A DNA stretch of 64,000 nt from Halomonas sp. GT (lineage in GTDB: Bacteria > Pseudomonadota > Gammaproteobacteria > Pseudomonadales > Halomonadaceae). A program made the position numbers and the translations under genes. Under the pieces are notes generated by a model. That model saw only the letters and a program-made list of their open reading frames with translations. It did no database searches and was not told where the DNA came from. The stretch's first letter is position 1. The number at the start of each line of letters is the position of its first letter. Below are positions 37,462-59,769 of the stretch, one piece after another. The DNA lies in assembly GCF_002082565.1 (NCBI RefSeq), contig NZ_CP020562.1:186001-250000 (forward strand). The letters run 5' to 3'.

Positions 37462-37494
37462 AATATCCTCCCGGCTGGGAGGTGATGCAGTTGC

Positions 37495-37580
37495 ACCACG
37501 ACTCCCTACGCCGGTGTTATCCGGTTCAGGTTCAAAGGGTGCTTCTCAGCCCGTTAAGCAAGGGCGCCCCTGTCGTGATG
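37495..37580 (-). promoter_or_regulatory. TPP riboswitch (THI element) of thiM-thiE
   Basis: Read on the minus strand the segment gives CAGGGGCGCCC, then CTGAGA, ACCCTTTGAACCTGA, CCGGATAACACCGG and CGTAGGGA, the hallmark order of the TPP aptamer, 30-40 nt before the thiM start. A downstream SD-sequestering stem is expected (the region carries CCTCCCAGCCGGGAGG at 37468-37483, whose 3' half includes the thiM RBS), so control is likely at translation initiation. Boundaries are approximate. Confidence 0.93.
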
Positions 37581-37582
37581 GT

Positions 37583-51932: not shown

Positions 51933-52991
51933 ATGTACCAGCGCTTACTTGAACACCTCACCACCGCAGTCTTACTGCTAGACGGTGAACTCCGCGTTTG
52001 CTGGATGAACCCGGCAGCGGAAGCGCTGCTAGCGGTGAGCTTTAGCCGTGTGCAGGGCATTAGTTTAGACACGCTGCTAGGGGGCGATGAGAGTATTGAT
52101 GATGTCCTCGCCAAGGCGCGGGATGCCTTTCATCCCTATACCCAGCGCGAAGCACGCATTACGCCGCTGAACAGCGAGTCATTGACGGTGGACTACACGG
52201 TGACCCCGCTTTCTGCCGATGAACTATTACTTGAAGTAGAGCCCCGTGATCGGCTAATGCAGATCTCCCGGGAAGAAGCGCTGACCACCCGGCAAGAGAC
52301 GATCAAAGTATTAGCGCGGGGCTTGGCTCATGAAGTTAAAAACCCCTTAGGTGGGATACGCGGTGCTGCCCAATTATTGGAGCGCGATCTAGACGACCCT
52401 GCACTACGTGAATTTACCCACATTATTGTTGAAGAGGTGGATCGGCTGCGAGATTTGGTCGACTCCATGCTGGGCCCCAATCGCATTGTCAAACATGAGC
52501 CGGTCAACATCCATAAGGTGTTAGAGCGGGTGCGAGCACTGCTGATTGCCGAGCATCCTCATGTTGAAATTCGTCGTGACTATGACCCAAGTCTGCCGGA
52601 TCTGTCTGGCGATGAATCTCAAATGATCCAAGCGTTATTGAATGTGGCACGTAACGCGGTACAGGCCATGAGTGATGCAGCAACACCTTCGCCGGAGCTT
52701 ACGCTGCGCACCCGAGCACGCCGCCAATTTACGCTGGGGGCTGAACGCCATCGTTTAGTCAGTGAAGTGGGGGTCATTGATAATGGCCCTGGCATACCTG
52801 AAACGTTACGTGAAACGCTTTTCTATCCCATGGTTTCTGGGCGCGCTGAAGGTAGCGGCCTAGGGCTATCGATTGCTCAGTCGATTTTGCACCAACATCA
52901 AGGATTGATCGAATGCGACTCACGCCCTGGACATACCGAATTTCGTTTACTGATTCCATTGGTTGTTAATTTCACCGGAGAAGCGTCATGA
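51933..52991 (+). CDS. ntrB: Nitrogen regulation sensor histidine kinase NtrB
   Basis: NtrB (GlnL) phosphorylates NtrC under nitrogen limitation and is switched by PII. ATG 51933 with AGGA gives 352 aa (E. coli 349), MYQRLLEHLTTAVLLLDGEL; a GTG start at 51834 is rejected because it enters the promoter region. An N-terminal PAS domain (1-110), phospho-acceptor H133 in LAHEVKNPLGG, N-box (NVARNAVQAM) and G-boxes (DNGPGIP, GSGLGLS) are intact. No membrane segment. ATGA overlap with ntrC. Confidence 0.95.
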   Translation: MYQRLLEHLTTAVLLLDGELRVCWMNPAAEALLAVSFSRVQGISLDTLLGGDESIDDVLAKARDAFHPYTQREARITPLNSESLTVDYTVTPLSADELLLEVEPRDRLMQISREEALTTRQETIKVLARGLAHEVKNPLGGIRGAAQLLERDLDDPALREFTHIIVEEVDRLRDLVDSMLGPNRIVKHEPVNIHKVLERVRALLIAEHPHVEIRRDYDPSLPDLSGDESQMIQALLNVARNAVQAMSDAATPSPELTLRTRARRQFTLGAERHRLVSEVGVIDNGPGIPETLRETLFYPMVSGRAEGSGLGLSIAQSILHQHQGLIECDSRPGHTEFRLLIPLVVNFTGEAS

Positions 52992-54418
52992 CTGAGGCGA
53001 CACAAACCGATGTAGCACGAGTGGTTATTGTCGATGATGACCGCGCCATCCGTTGGGTATTAGAGCGGGCCTTAGCGCAGCCAGACCTGAAGGTAGAGTG
53101 TATTGAGCGTGCGGATACCGCGCTGGAGCGATTGTTAGAAAATCCACCGGATGTATTGGTGACTGATATTCGTATGCCTGGCATTGATGGGCTGGATTTA
53201 ATGTCCCGGGTACGTGATGCGCACCCTGACTTGCCTGTGATTGTGATGACCGCGCATTCGGACCTCGACAGCGCCGTGGCCTCTTACCAAGGGGGGGCAT
53301 TTGAATACCTGCCTAAACCTTTTGATGTGGACGAAGCGCTGGCGCTGGTGCGACGTGCGGTAGCTCATGCAAGAGAGCGTCAGCGCCCGGTCAGCGTGCC
53401 GGAAGGATTGAGCGCAGAGATTATTGGTGAAGCACCTGCTATGCAGGAAGTGTTTCGCGCCATCGGGCGGCTTTCCCACTCCCACATCACGGTGTTAATT
53501 AACGGTGAGTCTGGCACCGGTAAAGAGCGTGTTGCTCAGGCGCTGCATCAGCATAGCCCCCGGGCAGGCAAGCCGTTTATTGCGCTGAATATGGCGGCGA
53601 TTCCCCGCGACTTGATTGAGTCCGAACTATTCGGCCATGAAAAGGGTGCGTTTACAGGGGCAGCGCAACAGCGCCAAGGCCGCTTTGAGCAGGCTAATGG
53701 TGGGACGCTGTTTCTTGATGAAATTGGCGACATGCCCGCTGAAACGCAAACGCGCTTGCTTCGTGTGTTAGCGGATGGTGAATTCTATCGCGTGGGCGGC
53801 CATACGCCTGTAAAAGTCGATGTGCGTATTATTGCCGCTACCCATCAGAATCTGGAATCGTTAGTTGATGATGGACGGTTTCGAGAGGACTTGTTCCACC
53901 GCTTAAACGTGATTCGCGTTCATCTGCCGCGCCTGTCCGAACGTCGGGAAGATATTCCACGTTTAACGCGTCATTTCTTAGCGGAAGCTGCCAAAGAGCT
54001 GACCACAGATATCAAGGTGTTAACGCCAGAAGCTGAAGCGCACCTTACCCGTTTGCCGTGGCCGGGTAATGTTCGTCAATTAGAAAATATTTGCCGTTGG
54101 CTAACCGTAATGGCTTCTGGCCGCGAAATTCTCATTGAGGACTTACCTCCTGAACTGCGTTCAGTCAATGCGTCTGAAAGCAGTGTTCATGGCGATTGGC
54201 GTTCCGCGTTCAGAGATTGGGCTGATCACGCCCTGGCAGAAGGCCATACCCATCTGTTGGAAGAAGCCGTGCCGGATTTTGAACGCATTCTGATTGAAAC
54301 CGCGCTAAAACATACCGGTGGTCGCAAAGGGGAAGCCGCCGAATTACTCGGCTGGGGACGCAATACACTTACCCGTAAATTGAAAACACTGCTGCCTGCG
54401 CTAGCAGATGATGCCTAA
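52988..54418 (+). CDS. ntrC: Nitrogen regulation response regulator NtrC
   Basis: sigma54-dependent activator of nitrogen-regulated genes. The 476-aa product has a REC domain with phospho-acceptor D60 (VLVTDIRMPG), an AAA+ domain (Walker A GESGTGKER; GAFTGA sigma54 contact loop; Walker B GGTLFLDEIGDM) and a Fis-type helix-turn-helix at the C-terminus (GRKGEAAELLGWGRNTLTRK). It is translationally coupled to ntrB. Confidence 0.96.
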   Translation: MTEATQTDVARVVIVDDDRAIRWVLERALAQPDLKVECIERADTALERLLENPPDVLVTDIRMPGIDGLDLMSRVRDAHPDLPVIVMTAHSDLDSAVASYQGGAFEYLPKPFDVDEALALVRRAVAHARERQRPVSVPEGLSAEIIGEAPAMQEVFRAIGRLSHSHITVLINGESGTGKERVAQALHQHSPRAGKPFIALNMAAIPRDLIESELFGHEKGAFTGAAQQRQGRFEQANGGTLFLDEIGDMPAETQTRLLRVLADGEFYRVGGHTPVKVDVRIIAATHQNLESLVDDGRFREDLFHRLNVIRVHLPRLSERREDIPRLTRHFLAEAAKELTTDIKVLTPEAEAHLTRLPWPGNVRQLENICRWLTVMASGREILIEDLPPELRSVNASESSVHGDWRSAFRDWADHALAEGHTHLLEEAVPDFERILIETALKHTGGRKGEAAELLGWGRNTLTRKLKTLLPALADDA

Positions 54419-55788: not shown

Positions 55789-56293
55789 GCTCTAAAAACC
55801 GCTCGAAATCGGAAAGTATTGTATCGAGACTGTTCTGCAGGCGGTGATCATCGTCAATCATGCGTAGCGAAAGTCGCTGACAGCGGGCATGCTCAATGAC
55901 TGGGCCGGGTGGCACGACATCATCTCGCCATCCATGAATGATATGCGTGTGTTGCGCTTGCAGTGTGATAGAGGTTTGCGGGTAATCTGGTAGGCCAAGG
56001 GCAGGGGCTAATAAAAAGCAGCCTAGCACGGGTTCATGAGCACTCACCGCTGCACTTAACCATCCGCCGAGGCTGGAGCCCGCCATAACGCAGTTAGCAA
56101 GCGTGTCGTTTCGCTCATCAATCACGGCAAGTAAATGCTCTAAACGCTCCTGCGGCTCCTTTAAACCACGGTAGTCCATGACGACGGGGACGCAGTTCTC
56201 AAACTTCTCAGCAACTCCTTTCAGCGCTTGCACCTTCAGGGCGCCAGGCCCGCTTTCCAGGCCGTGTGACAGGTAAACAGTCATCATGGCCAT
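55775..56293 (-). CDS. Small alpha/beta hydrolase (YqiA/YcfP-like)
   Basis: 172-aa predicted esterase. It begins MAMMTVYLSHGLESGPGALK and has the nucleophile elbow AGSSLGGWLSA, an acid in HGWRDDVVPP and the His in DDDHRLQNSL. YqiA-type proteins are small cytoplasmic esterases of unknown role. Its ATG overlaps the stop of the entericidin-like gene by one base (TAATG), which supports this start over the two ATGs just downstream and implies translational coupling. Confidence 0.85.
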   Translation of the reverse strand: MAMMTVYLSHGLESGPGALKVQALKGVAEKFENCVPVVMDYRGLKEPQERLEHLLAVIDERNDTLANCVMAGSSLGGWLSAAVSAHEPVLGCFLLAPALGLPDYPQTSITLQAQHTHIIHGWRDDVVPPGPVIEHARCQRLSLRMIDDDHRLQNSLDTILSDFERFLELCLQ

Positions 56294-56427
56294 TAACTAC
56301 TTGCAGAGCGCTGAATAGCTTCGCCGCCTCGTTCAATATCTTCGCCTGCGCCGCGAATAGTATTGCAGCCACTTATGACCAGAAGTGTCACCATCATCAA
56401 TAAACTGATCGCCGTTGCACGCTTCAT
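56293..56427 (-). CDS. Entericidin A/B-like small lipoprotein
   Basis: 44-aa protein: MKRATAISLLMMVTLLVISG-C followed by NTIRGAGEDIERGGEAIQRS. The signal sequence, the lipobox VISG-C and the short amphipathic C-terminus with GAGEDIxxGG match the entericidin family, whose members in E. coli form an antidote/toxin lipoprotein pair. AGGA lies before the ATG. Only one entericidin is present, coupled to a hydrolase gene. Confidence 0.85.
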   Translation of the reverse strand: MKRATAISLLMMVTLLVISGCNTIRGAGEDIERGGEAIQRSASS

Positions 56428-56789
56428 CGAATGAATCCTCATCAGCTGAGTGCTTGTAGAGCGGTTTTAGGTACGCTGTCATTAAAAATAATCGTTGCAA
56501 GCAGTTGGTGCCATCGTTTTCCCATCGTTTGAGCGCTTGCTGGCCGTGCGTTTTTGTCGCATGTGTCAGTTTTAGCCATGAAATAGCGACGTTTACCTCT
56601 GATCTTGGCACTGTTTATATATTTTAAGGCATTGTTATTTAAGTTTTTTTTAATTAAAGATGGCACTTGGCCTATTGTCTGCAACAACCTGACTATAGAC
56701 GTAATGTTGTCACTTTTAATTTTTAAGTGAAATTGATCGCCAAAACGCTTCGCAGCAATTTGAGTAGTAATTATTTAGTAGTAATGAGT

Positions 56790-56966
56790 AAACAGCGTGA
56801 GCAGGCTGATAGGTAATTAGGGAAGGCATGGAGCCATATCAGTAAAAGGATGTGAAAGGACAATTAGCCTGCTCACCCTTATCAGTGTAAGGAAACGCTG
56901 ATCATCACCGCCAGGGAATAGCATTGATGCAAAATCACCATCTCGTGAAAGCGGGGTGGTTTTTTT
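56790..56966 (+). ncRNA. Candidate CsrB/RsmZ-type regulatory RNA (GGA-rich, own terminator)
   Basis: Six GGA motifs lie within 97 nt (56821, 56830, 56848, 56858, 56891, 56915). Several are placed like CsrA/RsmA sites: loop ATGGA of the hairpin GGC/GCC at 56825-56835, AAAAGGATGT at 56844-56853, and loop TAAGGAAA of the 7-bp hairpin 56881-56902. An 11-bp inverted repeat (56797-56807/56866-56876) closes the first part. A Rho-independent terminator follows. A weak promoter (TTGAGT at about 56758, TAATGA 16 bp later) could start it near 56790. The start position is my estimate. No ORF. Confidence 0.6.
56937..56966 (+). terminator. Rho-independent terminator of the intergenic RNA candidate
   Basis: ACCATCTCG (56937-56945) pairs with CGGGGTGGT (56952-56960) over 9 bp with two G-U pairs, loop TGAAAG, followed by six further T. 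No gene on the plus strand precedes it within 2 kb, which is why a noncoding transcript is proposed. Confidence 0.85.
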
Positions 56967-57142
56967 GCGTCAATTAATTCTTTTTAACACTTTGATTCTT
57001 ATGAATATTTAACTTTGCCTGATTTTCTGGACAGCTTTTGTATCAATGGGCGTGACATTTTGGTCTATCCTCTGGTGTAAACCAAAATTCAGCGGTTAGA
57101 AGACGTCAACGTAGCAGCCGCACACTTCCAGGGACAAGCGCT

Positions 57143-57274
57143 ATGGCGATGGTATTGATGTTATGCATGTTTGTGCTGTTTCTAGGGTTTTCGGGAGTCG
57201 GTCTTTACATGATGTTCAAGACATCATTTATGACCACAATAGAGGATCGTGACGACATGCCTCCCGATATGTGA
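57143..57274 (+). CDS. Small membrane protein
   Basis: 43 aa: one long hydrophobic segment (MAMVLMLCMFVLFLGFSGVG) followed by LYMMFKTSFMTTIEDRDDMP and an acidic tail. An AGGGA lies 9-10 bp before the ATG and a strong terminator follows 33 bp after the stop, so the unit is self-contained. I do not recognise a family. Confidence 0.6.
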   Translation: MAMVLMLCMFVLFLGFSGVGLYMMFKTSFMTTIEDRDDMPPDM

Positions 57275-57498: not shown

Positions 57499-59769
57499 AT
57501 GTCTCAGAACCCACCCGCTGACCCTTCCTCAGCATCCAAGGCTTCGTCCTGTCATGTGCGTTTGGATCTTAGCGAGTTGCGCGCCACGCAGGGAGCAAGG
57601 GGGACGTTGGTGGAGCCAACGCTTACCTGCAGGGTCAAAATAAGTGGCAACATGGTACGCGCTGAATTACTGCATCAGCGGTTGCGCTTGATGGTACCGA
57701 CACTTTGGCCTAGCCAGCCAATTTTGGAGGCACCGCCTGAGGTTTGGCCGCAGCATTTCATCGTCGCTGGCCAGCAGACTAGGTGGGTACAGGCATCACC
57801 AGATGACGTGGTTATGCACGAGACCCTTTGGGCGCTGGGCGAGTGGTTAGTTGCCTTAACGGTGGCTCTGCAGCGCACTGCTTACCAGTCTACCTATCAG
57901 GGGCAGGTGTTAGCCATTGAGAAAAATACGGTATTGATAGCCTTGCCATGGGCACGTTTGGCAACGGCGAAAGAGGCTTTGCGTTGGGCGGCACAGCACT
58001 TGATTGCGTGGTCAGCCACGGGTGGATCTGCGGATGATGAACCATGGCACAAGGACTTCCACGAGTGGTTAAAAAACGCTCAACAACGTGGCAATAATAT
58101 CATTACCCAAGGTTTTATCATGGCGGCGCGGCAGCGCGAGCTGCCGGTCACTCGATTGTCGCCCGATGCTTTTCAGCTAGGCTGGGGGAGTGCTCAGGTG
58201 CACTGGGAGAGCTCTTGCTTCCGGGATTCAATGGTGGCCGGACGAATGGCCAATTATAAACACTTATCAACCCGGCGGCTTGAACAGGTCAGTATTCCTG
58301 TGCCGAAAACCCATGTGGTCACTACGCAAGAGGCTGCCGCACAAGCCGCTGAAATCTTGGGATACCCGGTTGTGGTTAAGCCCCTGAATAATGATCGTGG
58401 CGAGGGCGTCTTTTCCAACCTGCATAGCCAGGCTGAACTGATTAGTGCTTTTAAAAAGGCGGCAGAGTTTAGTTCGAATATTATTGTTCAGCGCCATGTG
58501 CAGGGTGAAGATTACCGTCTGCTCGTCGTCAACGGAAAATGCTTGGTTGTTACACGTCGTGACCCGGCAGCGGTGGTCGGGGATGGAAAGCATACTATTA
58601 AAGAACTGGTAGATATCGCCAACCAGGATCCTCGACGAGGTGATTCAACTCGCAGCTATCTGATTAAGTTGGCGTTGGACGATATCTCTCTTGAGGTGTT
58701 AGCACAGCAAGGTATCGAGGCAGATACCATTCCTGCAAGCGGTGAGAAAGTTCTCTTGCGCCAAATAGCTAATTTTTCTACCGGTGGCACGGTAGAAGAT
58801 GTGACCGACCGAGTGCACCCTGATAATGCTCTGCTGGCCGTTCGTGCTGCTCGTGCCATTGGCTTAAGTATCGCGGGCGTGGATCTACTAATTTCTGACA
58901 TTGAGCGTTCATGGCGCGAGGTGAACGGGCATATTATTGAAGTCAACGGTGGCCCAGGGCTTCGTTTGCATTGGCTGGGTAACCCGACGCGGGACCTTAA
59001 CGGCGAAATTCTTGATCAAAGTCTCGGCAAACATCAGCTGAGAATTCCTACTGCCGCAGTGCTGGGCTTGGCCCGCAATGGTTGCGAAAATCCCGCCGCG
59101 CGAATTTGTCGAATGTTGCATCATTTACTTGTTGCTAACGATGGCAGCCCAGGGACTACTACATCACAAGGTGTTTTCATCAACAGTGAGCAAATCAGCA
59201 CTCAAAGCTCTGTCTCTTCCGGAACAGTACCTGCGGCGTTGTGTGATGCCAGCGTTGATGCTGCTTTCTTCGAGCTATGGCCTACTCTATTGGAGGCATA
59301 CGGCCACTTCTGTGATCGCTATGAGGTGCTGGCGCTGTACGAGGCGGATGAATCGCTTAGCAATAACGTGTCTGATTGTTTGGCCCGTGCTGGCCATTCA
59401 GTGGTGATTAATGCCGACTCAGAGAGTGTGCGGGCACTGCGTAAAGAGATATCGGCAGGCTGTCAATCAGTGTTGGTTTCTATCACCGCGGATAACCCTG
59501 ACCTAGTCGCTCATCGTGCACAGGGTGGAGAAGGGCTCACCATTGCGTTTCACCAGGGAGCGCGCTGGATAGTGGCATGCCAAGGTAACGACGAGAAGCC
59601 ACTGTTGTCAGTCAATGTCTTAAGCTACTTACATGATGCCTTGGGAGACGCTGGTTTACGCGAGGCGATGGTTGCGTTAGCGATTGCCCATGCCCTTGGT
59701 ATGCGCTGGGAAAACCTGATTATGCCGATGGTCTCTTTCCCTTTGAAACAGCATTATCCCATCCAATAA
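57499..59769 (+). CDS. Cyanophycin-synthetase-like ATP-grasp protein with a degenerate Mur-ligase domain
   Basis: 756-aa protein. An N-terminal CphA-like domain (1-240) is followed by an intact ATP-grasp (about 250-500: GYPVVVKPLNNDRGEGVFSN, VQGEDYRLLVVNGK, VVGDGKHTIKELVDIAN, NFSTGGTVEDVTDRVHPDN, HIIEVNGGPGLRLHW). The C-terminal part (515-735) still reads like the CphA Mur-ligase (TTSQGVFI; DNPDLVAHRAQGGEG), but the ATP P-loop expected as GTNGKTT is GLARNGC at residue 523, with the lysine replaced by N527. Length is shorter than the 870-900 aa of CphA. In CphA the ATP-grasp adds Asp to the backbone and the Mur part adds Arg, so this protein could make at most one of the bonds. No cyanophycinase gene is nearby. 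Confidence 0.85.
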   Translation: MSQNPPADPSSASKASSCHVRLDLSELRATQGARGTLVEPTLTCRVKISGNMVRAELLHQRLRLMVPTLWPSQPILEAPPEVWPQHFIVAGQQTRWVQASPDDVVMHETLWALGEWLVALTVALQRTAYQSTYQGQVLAIEKNTVLIALPWARLATAKEALRWAAQHLIAWSATGGSADDEPWHKDFHEWLKNAQQRGNNIITQGFIMAARQRELPVTRLSPDAFQLGWGSAQVHWESSCFRDSMVAGRMANYKHLSTRRLEQVSIPVPKTHVVTTQEAAAQAAEILGYPVVVKPLNNDRGEGVFSNLHSQAELISAFKKAAEFSSNIIVQRHVQGEDYRLLVVNGKCLVVTRRDPAAVVGDGKHTIKELVDIANQDPRRGDSTRSYLIKLALDDISLEVLAQQGIEADTIPASGEKVLLRQIANFSTGGTVEDVTDRVHPDNALLAVRAARAIGLSIAGVDLLISDIERSWREVNGHIIEVNGGPGLRLHWLGNPTRDLNGEILDQSLGKHQLRIPTAAVLGLARNGCENPAARICRMLHHLLVANDGSPGTTTSQGVFINSEQISTQSSVSSGTVPAALCDASVDAAFFELWPTLLEAYGHFCDRYEVLALYEADESLSNNVSDCLARAGHSVVINADSESVRALRKEISAGCQSVLVSITADNPDLVAHRAQGGEGLTIAFHQGARWIVACQGNDEKPLLSVNVLSYLHDALGDAGLREAMVALAIAHALGMRWENLIMPMVSFPLKQHYPIQ

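Follow-up and report, generated by a model that had tools for sequence, protein, structure and literature searches.

The window analyzed here is the whole stretch of 64,000 nucleotides from Halomonas sp. GT (NZ_CP020562.1, positions 186,001 to 250,000), and coordinates refer to it unless a genome position is given. An intergenic segment on its plus strand, at 56790-56966, stands divergent to a gene for an entericidin-family small lipoprotein (56293-56442, minus strand) and is followed by a 43-aa frame without a family match (57143-57274). Among the 63 loci compared below, a YqiA-like gene lies beside the segment in all 63, the lipoprotein gene is found in 61, and the small frame follows about 175 nt downstream in 58. 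A cyanophycin synthetase-like protein is encoded at 57499-59769; it scores 418.5 bits against a family cut-off of 877 and occurs in 3 of the 63 loci within the short flanks fetched. A TPP riboswitch is also present in the window (37486-37581, minus strand, 73.8 bits).

The initial annotation described the segment as an unreported GGA-rich RNA resembling CsrA antagonists of the CsrB/RsmZ type. The features on which this reading was built are readily located. Six GGA motifs, at 56821, 56830, 56848, 56858, 56891 and 56915, span 97 nt of the window. The 11-bp inverted repeat GTGAGCAGGCT / AGCCTGCTCAC and the two hairpins with GGA in the loop are present both in the sequence and in the predicted fold of 56775-56966, whose z-score of -3.76 was equalled by none of 200 shuffles. 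A scan detects the terminator at 56937-56960 together with its T tract. This terminator had been said to have no gene in front of it, and the upstream sequence of the same strand indeed shows only mechanical open reading frames of about 40 aa, none of them convincing. A conserved coding frame, which had been named as evidence against an RNA, is absent from the core: stop-free runs are short and variable, with medians of 29-37 codons, and this candidate was rejected. The number of GGA motifs was rejected as evidence in itself, since the six in the core (3.8 ± 1.4 expected) are within chance, six or more being reached in 223 of 2000 dinucleotide shuffles. What goes beyond chance is that the GGA motifs keep their positions and that the stems show compensatory changes.

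Of 58 genomes searched at the DNA level, 24 contain the segment, each of them a member of the same genus. The RNAalifold result and two small hairpins, written on the alignment of these 24 sequences, give a structure of 41 pairs with 95.4% of cells paired, and the covariance model R1 was built from this alignment and structure. R1 recognizes one strong (at least 81 bits), full-length copy in each of 63 of the 75 genomes of the genus (Vreelandella/Halomonas), at syntenic positions. The copy in the window genome, which is itself part of the model, scores 181 bits. Further matches in the 63 positive genomes reach at most 32.8 bits and mostly correspond to the terminator on the opposite strand. 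Only weak matches (at most 29 bits) were obtained in other genera, in 7 of 175 genomes, using fast filters with which a diverged RNA could be missed. An exact pattern applied to a named genome collection gave 42 matches, 22 of which carry the terminator signature and bear the names Halomonas, Vreelandella or Halovibrio. The other 20 comprise four named Halomonas or Vreelandella with R1 scores of 119-174 bits, one Ensifer locus with 16.6 bits, and 15 that give nothing at E ≤ 0.01.

In the alignment of all 63 sequences, which was fitted to R1 and leans towards the model, 96.2% of cells are paired and 29 of the 41 pairs show two-sided changes. When the structure is slid along this alignment, pairing amounts to 37-46%, compared with 96.2% in place. 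Five measures were calculated on it, none of which was equalled in 500 shuffles. Each of the 12 pairs of the long stem P1 (Table 1) shows a two-sided change somewhere, and a strong terminator is present in all rows. In Rfam, the segment has no match at the gathering score. At E ≤ 10, only four chance-level matches appear, none of them of the Csr/Rsm kind, and RF00018 has no match anywhere in the genome. Membership in an Rfam family was consequently rejected. On comparative grounds, the segment is a noncoding RNA conserved in most sampled species of the salt-loving genus Vreelandella.

Table 1. Features of the RNA locus (window coordinates) and of a second GGA-rich locus in the same genome; site counts are over 63 sequences
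Feature	Coordinates	Strand	Remarks
Enhancer (putative activator site) TGTCGCATGTGTCAGTTTTAGCCA	56555..56578	+	best match at least 16/23 consensus positions, 63/63 genomes
IHF-like element, enhancer-promoter interval	56625..56637	-	best IHF-consensus match 43-44 bp before -24 in 44/63; count without shuffled control
Sigma-54 -24/-12 element TGGCCTATTGTCTGCA	56668..56683	+	TGGYN8TGCW; predicted +1 near 56694
Predicted 5' leader	56694..56790	+	variable, 4 to 265 nt between genomes; GGA-poor; extent inferred from promoter
Conserved RNA core (R1)	56791..56969	+	63 full-length strong matches in genus
Stem P1	56798..56875 (arms 56798-56809 / 56864-56875)	+	95.3% of cells paired; encloses four GGA sites
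GGA site S1	56821..56823	+	63/63
Hairpin P2, GGC-ATGGA-GCC	56825..56835	+	96.8% of stem cells paired; holds S2
GGA site S2	56830, in P2	+	62/63, in either of two adjacent columns
GGA site S3 (AAAAGGATGT)	56848..56850	+	63/63, one-column shift allowed
GGA site S4 (AAAGGACA)	56858..56860	+	63/63, one-column shift allowed
Hairpin P3	56882..56901	+	98.4% of cells paired; two-sided change in 6/7 pairs; S5 in loop
GGA site S5	56891, P3 loop	+	54/63; missing in 9/63
Small hairpin P4	56910..56922	+	stem weak, 81.3% of cells paired; S6 in loop
GGA site S6	56915, P4 loop	+	63/63
Rho-independent terminator (stem 56937-56960) and extended A/T stem	56929..56968	+	scan; helices 5 and 6 with 100% and 99.2% of cells paired
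GGA-rich GacA-box locus	L184 2604-3000 = G000:C1:730603-731000		after gene read as eno by eye

The GGA positions are kept in relatives. Five of the six sites occur in 62-63 of the 63 genus sequences and one in 54, when a shift of one column is allowed at S2-S4. Among the columns before the terminator that are kept at 70% or more, GGA occurs five times, the most of all 64 trinucleotides, followed by AGG with three. Conservation is 0.96 in GGA columns and 0.66 in other unpaired columns, a comparison with some circularity, since conservation was the criterion by which the GGA columns had been selected. In the 53 genomes with a predicted leader of 10 nt or more, the leaders are depleted in GGA, with 51 occurrences compared with 88.9 expected from mononucleotide shuffles, and additional sites in the leader were rejected. 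The retention of GGA in the core and its depletion in the leaders agree with the core being under selection for GGA. The genome contains one CsrA gene, at G000:C1:746136 (PF02599, 92.8 bits). The RNA thus combines several conserved GGA motifs in loops or single strands, a noncoding structure, a terminator and the presence of CsrA, whereas two further features of the CsrB/RsmZ type, a match to an Rfam family and a GacA/UvrY box upstream, were not found. Comparison gives good support to the proposed CsrA antagonist of the CsrB/RsmZ type, through the kept GGA sites, the covarying stems, the terminator and the CsrA gene; the Gac-type control is not supported. Six GGA motifs are few compared with the 22 of CsrB and 14 of CsrC given in the accessible part of one report (PMC11882849), and this counts against the decoy reading.

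Control of the RNA appears to be of a different kind. The classical GacA palindrome, already reported as missing, is not listed near the locus even with up to two mismatches, and GacA control was rejected. The -24/-12 motif TGGYN8TGCW, in contrast, is found within 500 nt upstream of the RNA in 63/63 genomes. On the other strand it occurs in 9/63, downstream in 0 and 3 of 63, and in mononucleotide shuffles in 114 of 3150 (3.6%). With this motif, the GG-N10-GC signature of sigma-54-dependent genes is present in 63/63 genomes. Upstream of the promoter-like element lies the putative enhancer, for which the sole zero-mismatch place of TGTCNCATGTGNCANNTNTANNCA in its own genome is this locus. This enhancer block, TGTCGCATGTGYCAGTTNTAYACA, matches at least 16/23 positions in 63/63 genomes. 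The distance from CATGTG to the -24 element is 107-110 bp in 46 genomes and 118-120 bp in 17 (n = 63), where G219 was counted by its second candidate site, the automatic pick being oddly spaced, in a choice made after seeing the data. The two registers are about one DNA helical turn apart, and the helical phase expected of a sigma-54 enhancer is thereby kept. An IHF-like element lies in the interval. IHF is likewise involved at csrB genes under GacA, according to the accessible text of PMC5109040, so that such a site is not by itself an argument for sigma-54.

The predicted transcript would extend from about 56694 to 56966. The conserved core begins at 56791, as in the initial annotation, but the predicted start lies near 56694. 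In 9 of 62 genomes only 4-5 nt separate the predicted start from the core, which suggests that the core is the functional RNA; the remaining leaders measure 32-265 nt. The repeat TCACTT/AAGTGA at 56710-56730, suggested earlier as an alternative control site, falls within the predicted transcript, in sequence that lacks conservation across genomes, and is therefore an unlikely control site. Judging from the promoter region, a sigma-54 promoter rather than the usual Gac system appears to turn the RNA on, probably under a little-known two-component system described below.

The Gac side of the genome can be sought elsewhere. An exact GacA box occurs in three places, and the one at G000:C1:730625 is the only one followed by many GGA motifs (11 in 400 nt, compared with 2-4 at the others). 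Another box, with two mismatches, stands 22 bp before it, and a terminator-like hairpin lies downstream. Rfam gives chance-level matches only at this locus, including rsmX with 15.3 bits. Judged by these elements, the locus is probably a classical Gac-controlled Csr RNA, and the sigma-54 RNA would then be the second one.

A search for the enhancer with up to three mismatches gives three further places in its own genome, compared with two for the reversed control. One of these lies 0.9 kb from an NtrC-family response regulator gene and in front of a convergent lipoprotein gene. The regulator forms a two-component pair with a histidine kinase at G000:C1:3041520-3044377 (locus L180). The region L180 1521-5252 holds the kinase, the regulator and the convergent gene for an acidic lipoprotein with its own enhancer and sigma-54-like promoter; it is patchy in Halomonadaceae and carries no curated family name. 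The regulator lies below every cut-off of its best 25 NCBIfam models, with ntrC, AtoC and LuxO nearest. The NtrC-family two-component system is present in several Halomonadaceae genera, and the kinase is patchy in genera other than its own, with 62-76% identity and 42-45% in some.

The exact enhancer-plus-promoter pattern was sought in 250 genomes of the family. Within the genus it occurs at 48 places in 45 genomes, 45 of them at the RNA and three near the regulator gene (G194, G247 and G251), while the reversed pattern gives none. Six places were found in other genera; one (G250) belongs to a lipoprotein gene of the same kind, and the other five look unrelated or like chance by eye. The core CATGTGYCA follows the regulator gene on the opposite strand in 28 of 30 loci, once per locus; the two exceptions are a short locus and G194, where the place lies outside the flank. 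With L129 and L262-L267 included, the count is 34 of 37 regulator loci. A sigma-54-like element follows the lipoprotein-side core in 20 of 34 cases, at 98-99 (7), 106-110 (12) or 119 (1) bp; in shuffled windows, 120 of 3400 have such an element. Three of these loci, L129 among them, had come up earlier with the pattern and do not count as independent. The pattern used recognizes no promoter at the other 14, and on the lipoprotein side of the window genome TGC at -12 is replaced by TGT. Six regulator regions from two other genera were also inspected, five of which have the enhancer and such an element, and the sixth ends at a contig edge.

The RNA and the regulator tend to occur together, in counts that ignore kinship; Fisher values calculated on them do not stand for the probability of independent events. 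A regulator ortholog (at least 83% identity) is present in 62 of the 62 RNA-positive genomes examined (G243 left out), and the 12 RNA-negative genomes have either paralog-level matches only (9) or a homolog of 74-76% (3). Seven further genomes are all less than 90% complete. The RNA is present in the four of them whose regulator match reaches 83-95% (two partial or split) and absent from two that lack the regulator. In G276 (74% complete), the RNA is present and the regulator match, at 71%, is broken by stops. A single gain within the genus may account for this co-occurrence. Considering the enhancers and their distribution, the two-component pair is most likely the activator of the RNA, and it seems to drive the neighboring lipoprotein gene as well.

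The conservation, the structure, the GGA sites and the promoter-like and enhancer elements all emerge from the comparison of genomes. They make it probable that the locus encodes a sigma-54-driven, CsrA-titrating RNA, with the L180 pair as likely activator and a second input into Csr. In this mechanism, the phosphorylated NtrC-family response regulator would bind 56555-56578 and activate the promoter, IHF would probably bend the DNA between enhancer and promoter, and RNA polymerase with sigma-54 would start near 56694. The noncoding RNA, of about 180-275 nt, would fold into the long stem, three small GGA hairpins and the terminator. Its six GGA sites would hold CsrA dimers, and CsrA-controlled mRNAs would be freed. 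The L180 pair would thereby act on Csr beside the Gac-type RNA. Transcription, CsrA binding, the identity of the activator and an activating signal are what we infer from the elements described. A broader reading is reasonably likely, in which an NtrC-family system, ancestrally the driver of the lipoprotein gene, gained a CsrA-sponge RNA in Vreelandella and so provides a Gac-independent second signal into Csr. If true, one signal, perhaps from the envelope, would turn on the lipoprotein and release the CsrA regulon.

Other explanations differ from this titration mechanism in the activator or in the function of the RNA. A CsrA sponge activated by a different enhancer-binding protein is fairly unlikely; NtrC, encoded 2.3 kb upstream, would be an example. 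The protein encoded at 52988-54418 is a true NtrC, above the NCBIfam cut-off, and ntrC is seen in the short flanks of 24 of the 63 loci; however, a single full enhancer in the genome does not resemble a broad NtrC regulon, and it is next to the regulator of L180 that the enhancer core appears again. An unlikely alternative in terms of function is an Hfq-dependent base-pairing RNA of the Qrr kind, also driven by sigma-54, in which the conserved loops would be seeds for mRNAs and not CsrA sites. The sigma-54 element with its enhancer and a terminator T tract suited to Hfq agree with it, as do columns 135, 137 and 138 (TCATC between P3 and P4), which are conserved, unpaired in the model and outside GGA. 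Against this, TCATC could pair with the following GATG, and six repeated, position-conserved GGA motifs, three of them in hairpin loops, form a CsrA pattern rather than a seed pattern.

The remaining two explanations question the independence of the RNA or its promoter. A leader or attenuator of the 43-aa frame, with conditional read-through of the terminator, is very improbable: the regular position of the frame downstream speaks for it, but the terminator is strong in all rows, and in 5 of the 63 loci the RNA is kept and no such frame was found. Least credible, with hardly any probability, is a GacA-controlled RsmZ/CsrB ortholog missed by the Rfam models. The GGA architecture is compatible with it, and a Gac system is reported in Halomonas anticariensis in the accessible part of a 2020 review (PMC7366521), but the locus has a conserved sigma-54 element and enhancer in place of a listed GacA box, and the genome has a GGA-rich locus with GacA boxes elsewhere.

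The preferred reading, a sigma-54-driven CsrA decoy, would be of consequence for the view of the Csr system. Csr decoy RNAs are familiar as GacA/UvrY outputs. If true, a decoy shared across the genus and governed by sigma-54 with an enhancer-binding protein would form a separate, tightly switched route into Csr, parallel to CrcZ for Hfq and GlmY for RapZ. Species of the Vreelandella/Halomonas group are used as production hosts, which makes the switch testable. A search of open-licence literature found no Csr RNA of Halomonas/Vreelandella and no sigma-54-driven CsrB-type RNA. The RNA would be a first candidate for a gap in print, since the Csr RNA of Halomonas anticariensis is listed as unknown in the accessible part of the 2020 review (PMC7366521).

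Several known systems share part of this arrangement. CsrB/CsrC and RsmX/Y/Z are GacA/UvrY-controlled RNAs that sequester CsrA/RsmA. The RNA described here resembles them as an intergenic noncoding RNA with repeated GGA in loops or single strands, a Rho-independent terminator and CsrA in the genome, but it has no Csr/Rsm-type Rfam match, and a sigma-54 element with an enhancer replaces the GacA box. Pf1, Pf2 and Pf3 of Pseudoalteromonas are Csr RNAs recognized by their GGA motifs, promoters and terminators (PMC11882849). They likewise represent GGA-motif Csr RNAs of a non-model marine bacterium; they contain 9 to 25 GGA compared with six here, and the accessible text mentions sigma-54 for flagellar genes only. 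GlmY of E. coli is driven by QseE/QseF and sigma-54, sequesters RapZ, and belongs to a two-component system with an associated lipoprotein, as given in the accessible part of PMC7073468. The combination of a two-component system, an associated lipoprotein and a sigma-54-driven protein-decoy RNA is common to both. Here, however, the RNA is of the GGA type, the regulator, with a score of 361, stays below the GlrR cut-off of 763, and the convergent lipoprotein gene is a putative target. CrcZ/CrcY of Pseudomonas are driven by CbrB and sigma-54 and sequester Hfq/Crc, for which AAYAAYAA is the motif. Unlike these RNAs, the present one has no AAYAAYAA in its core or leader, and its enhancer, compared by eye, does not match the CbrB consensus TGTTAC-N12-14-GTAACA as given in the accessible source. 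Contacts of CrcZ with RsmA and RsmN have been reported as well (accessible part of PMC8871633). With a sigma-54 promoter under an NtrC-family response regulator and the logic of a protein decoy in common, CrcZ is the nearest precedent found in the accessible sources.
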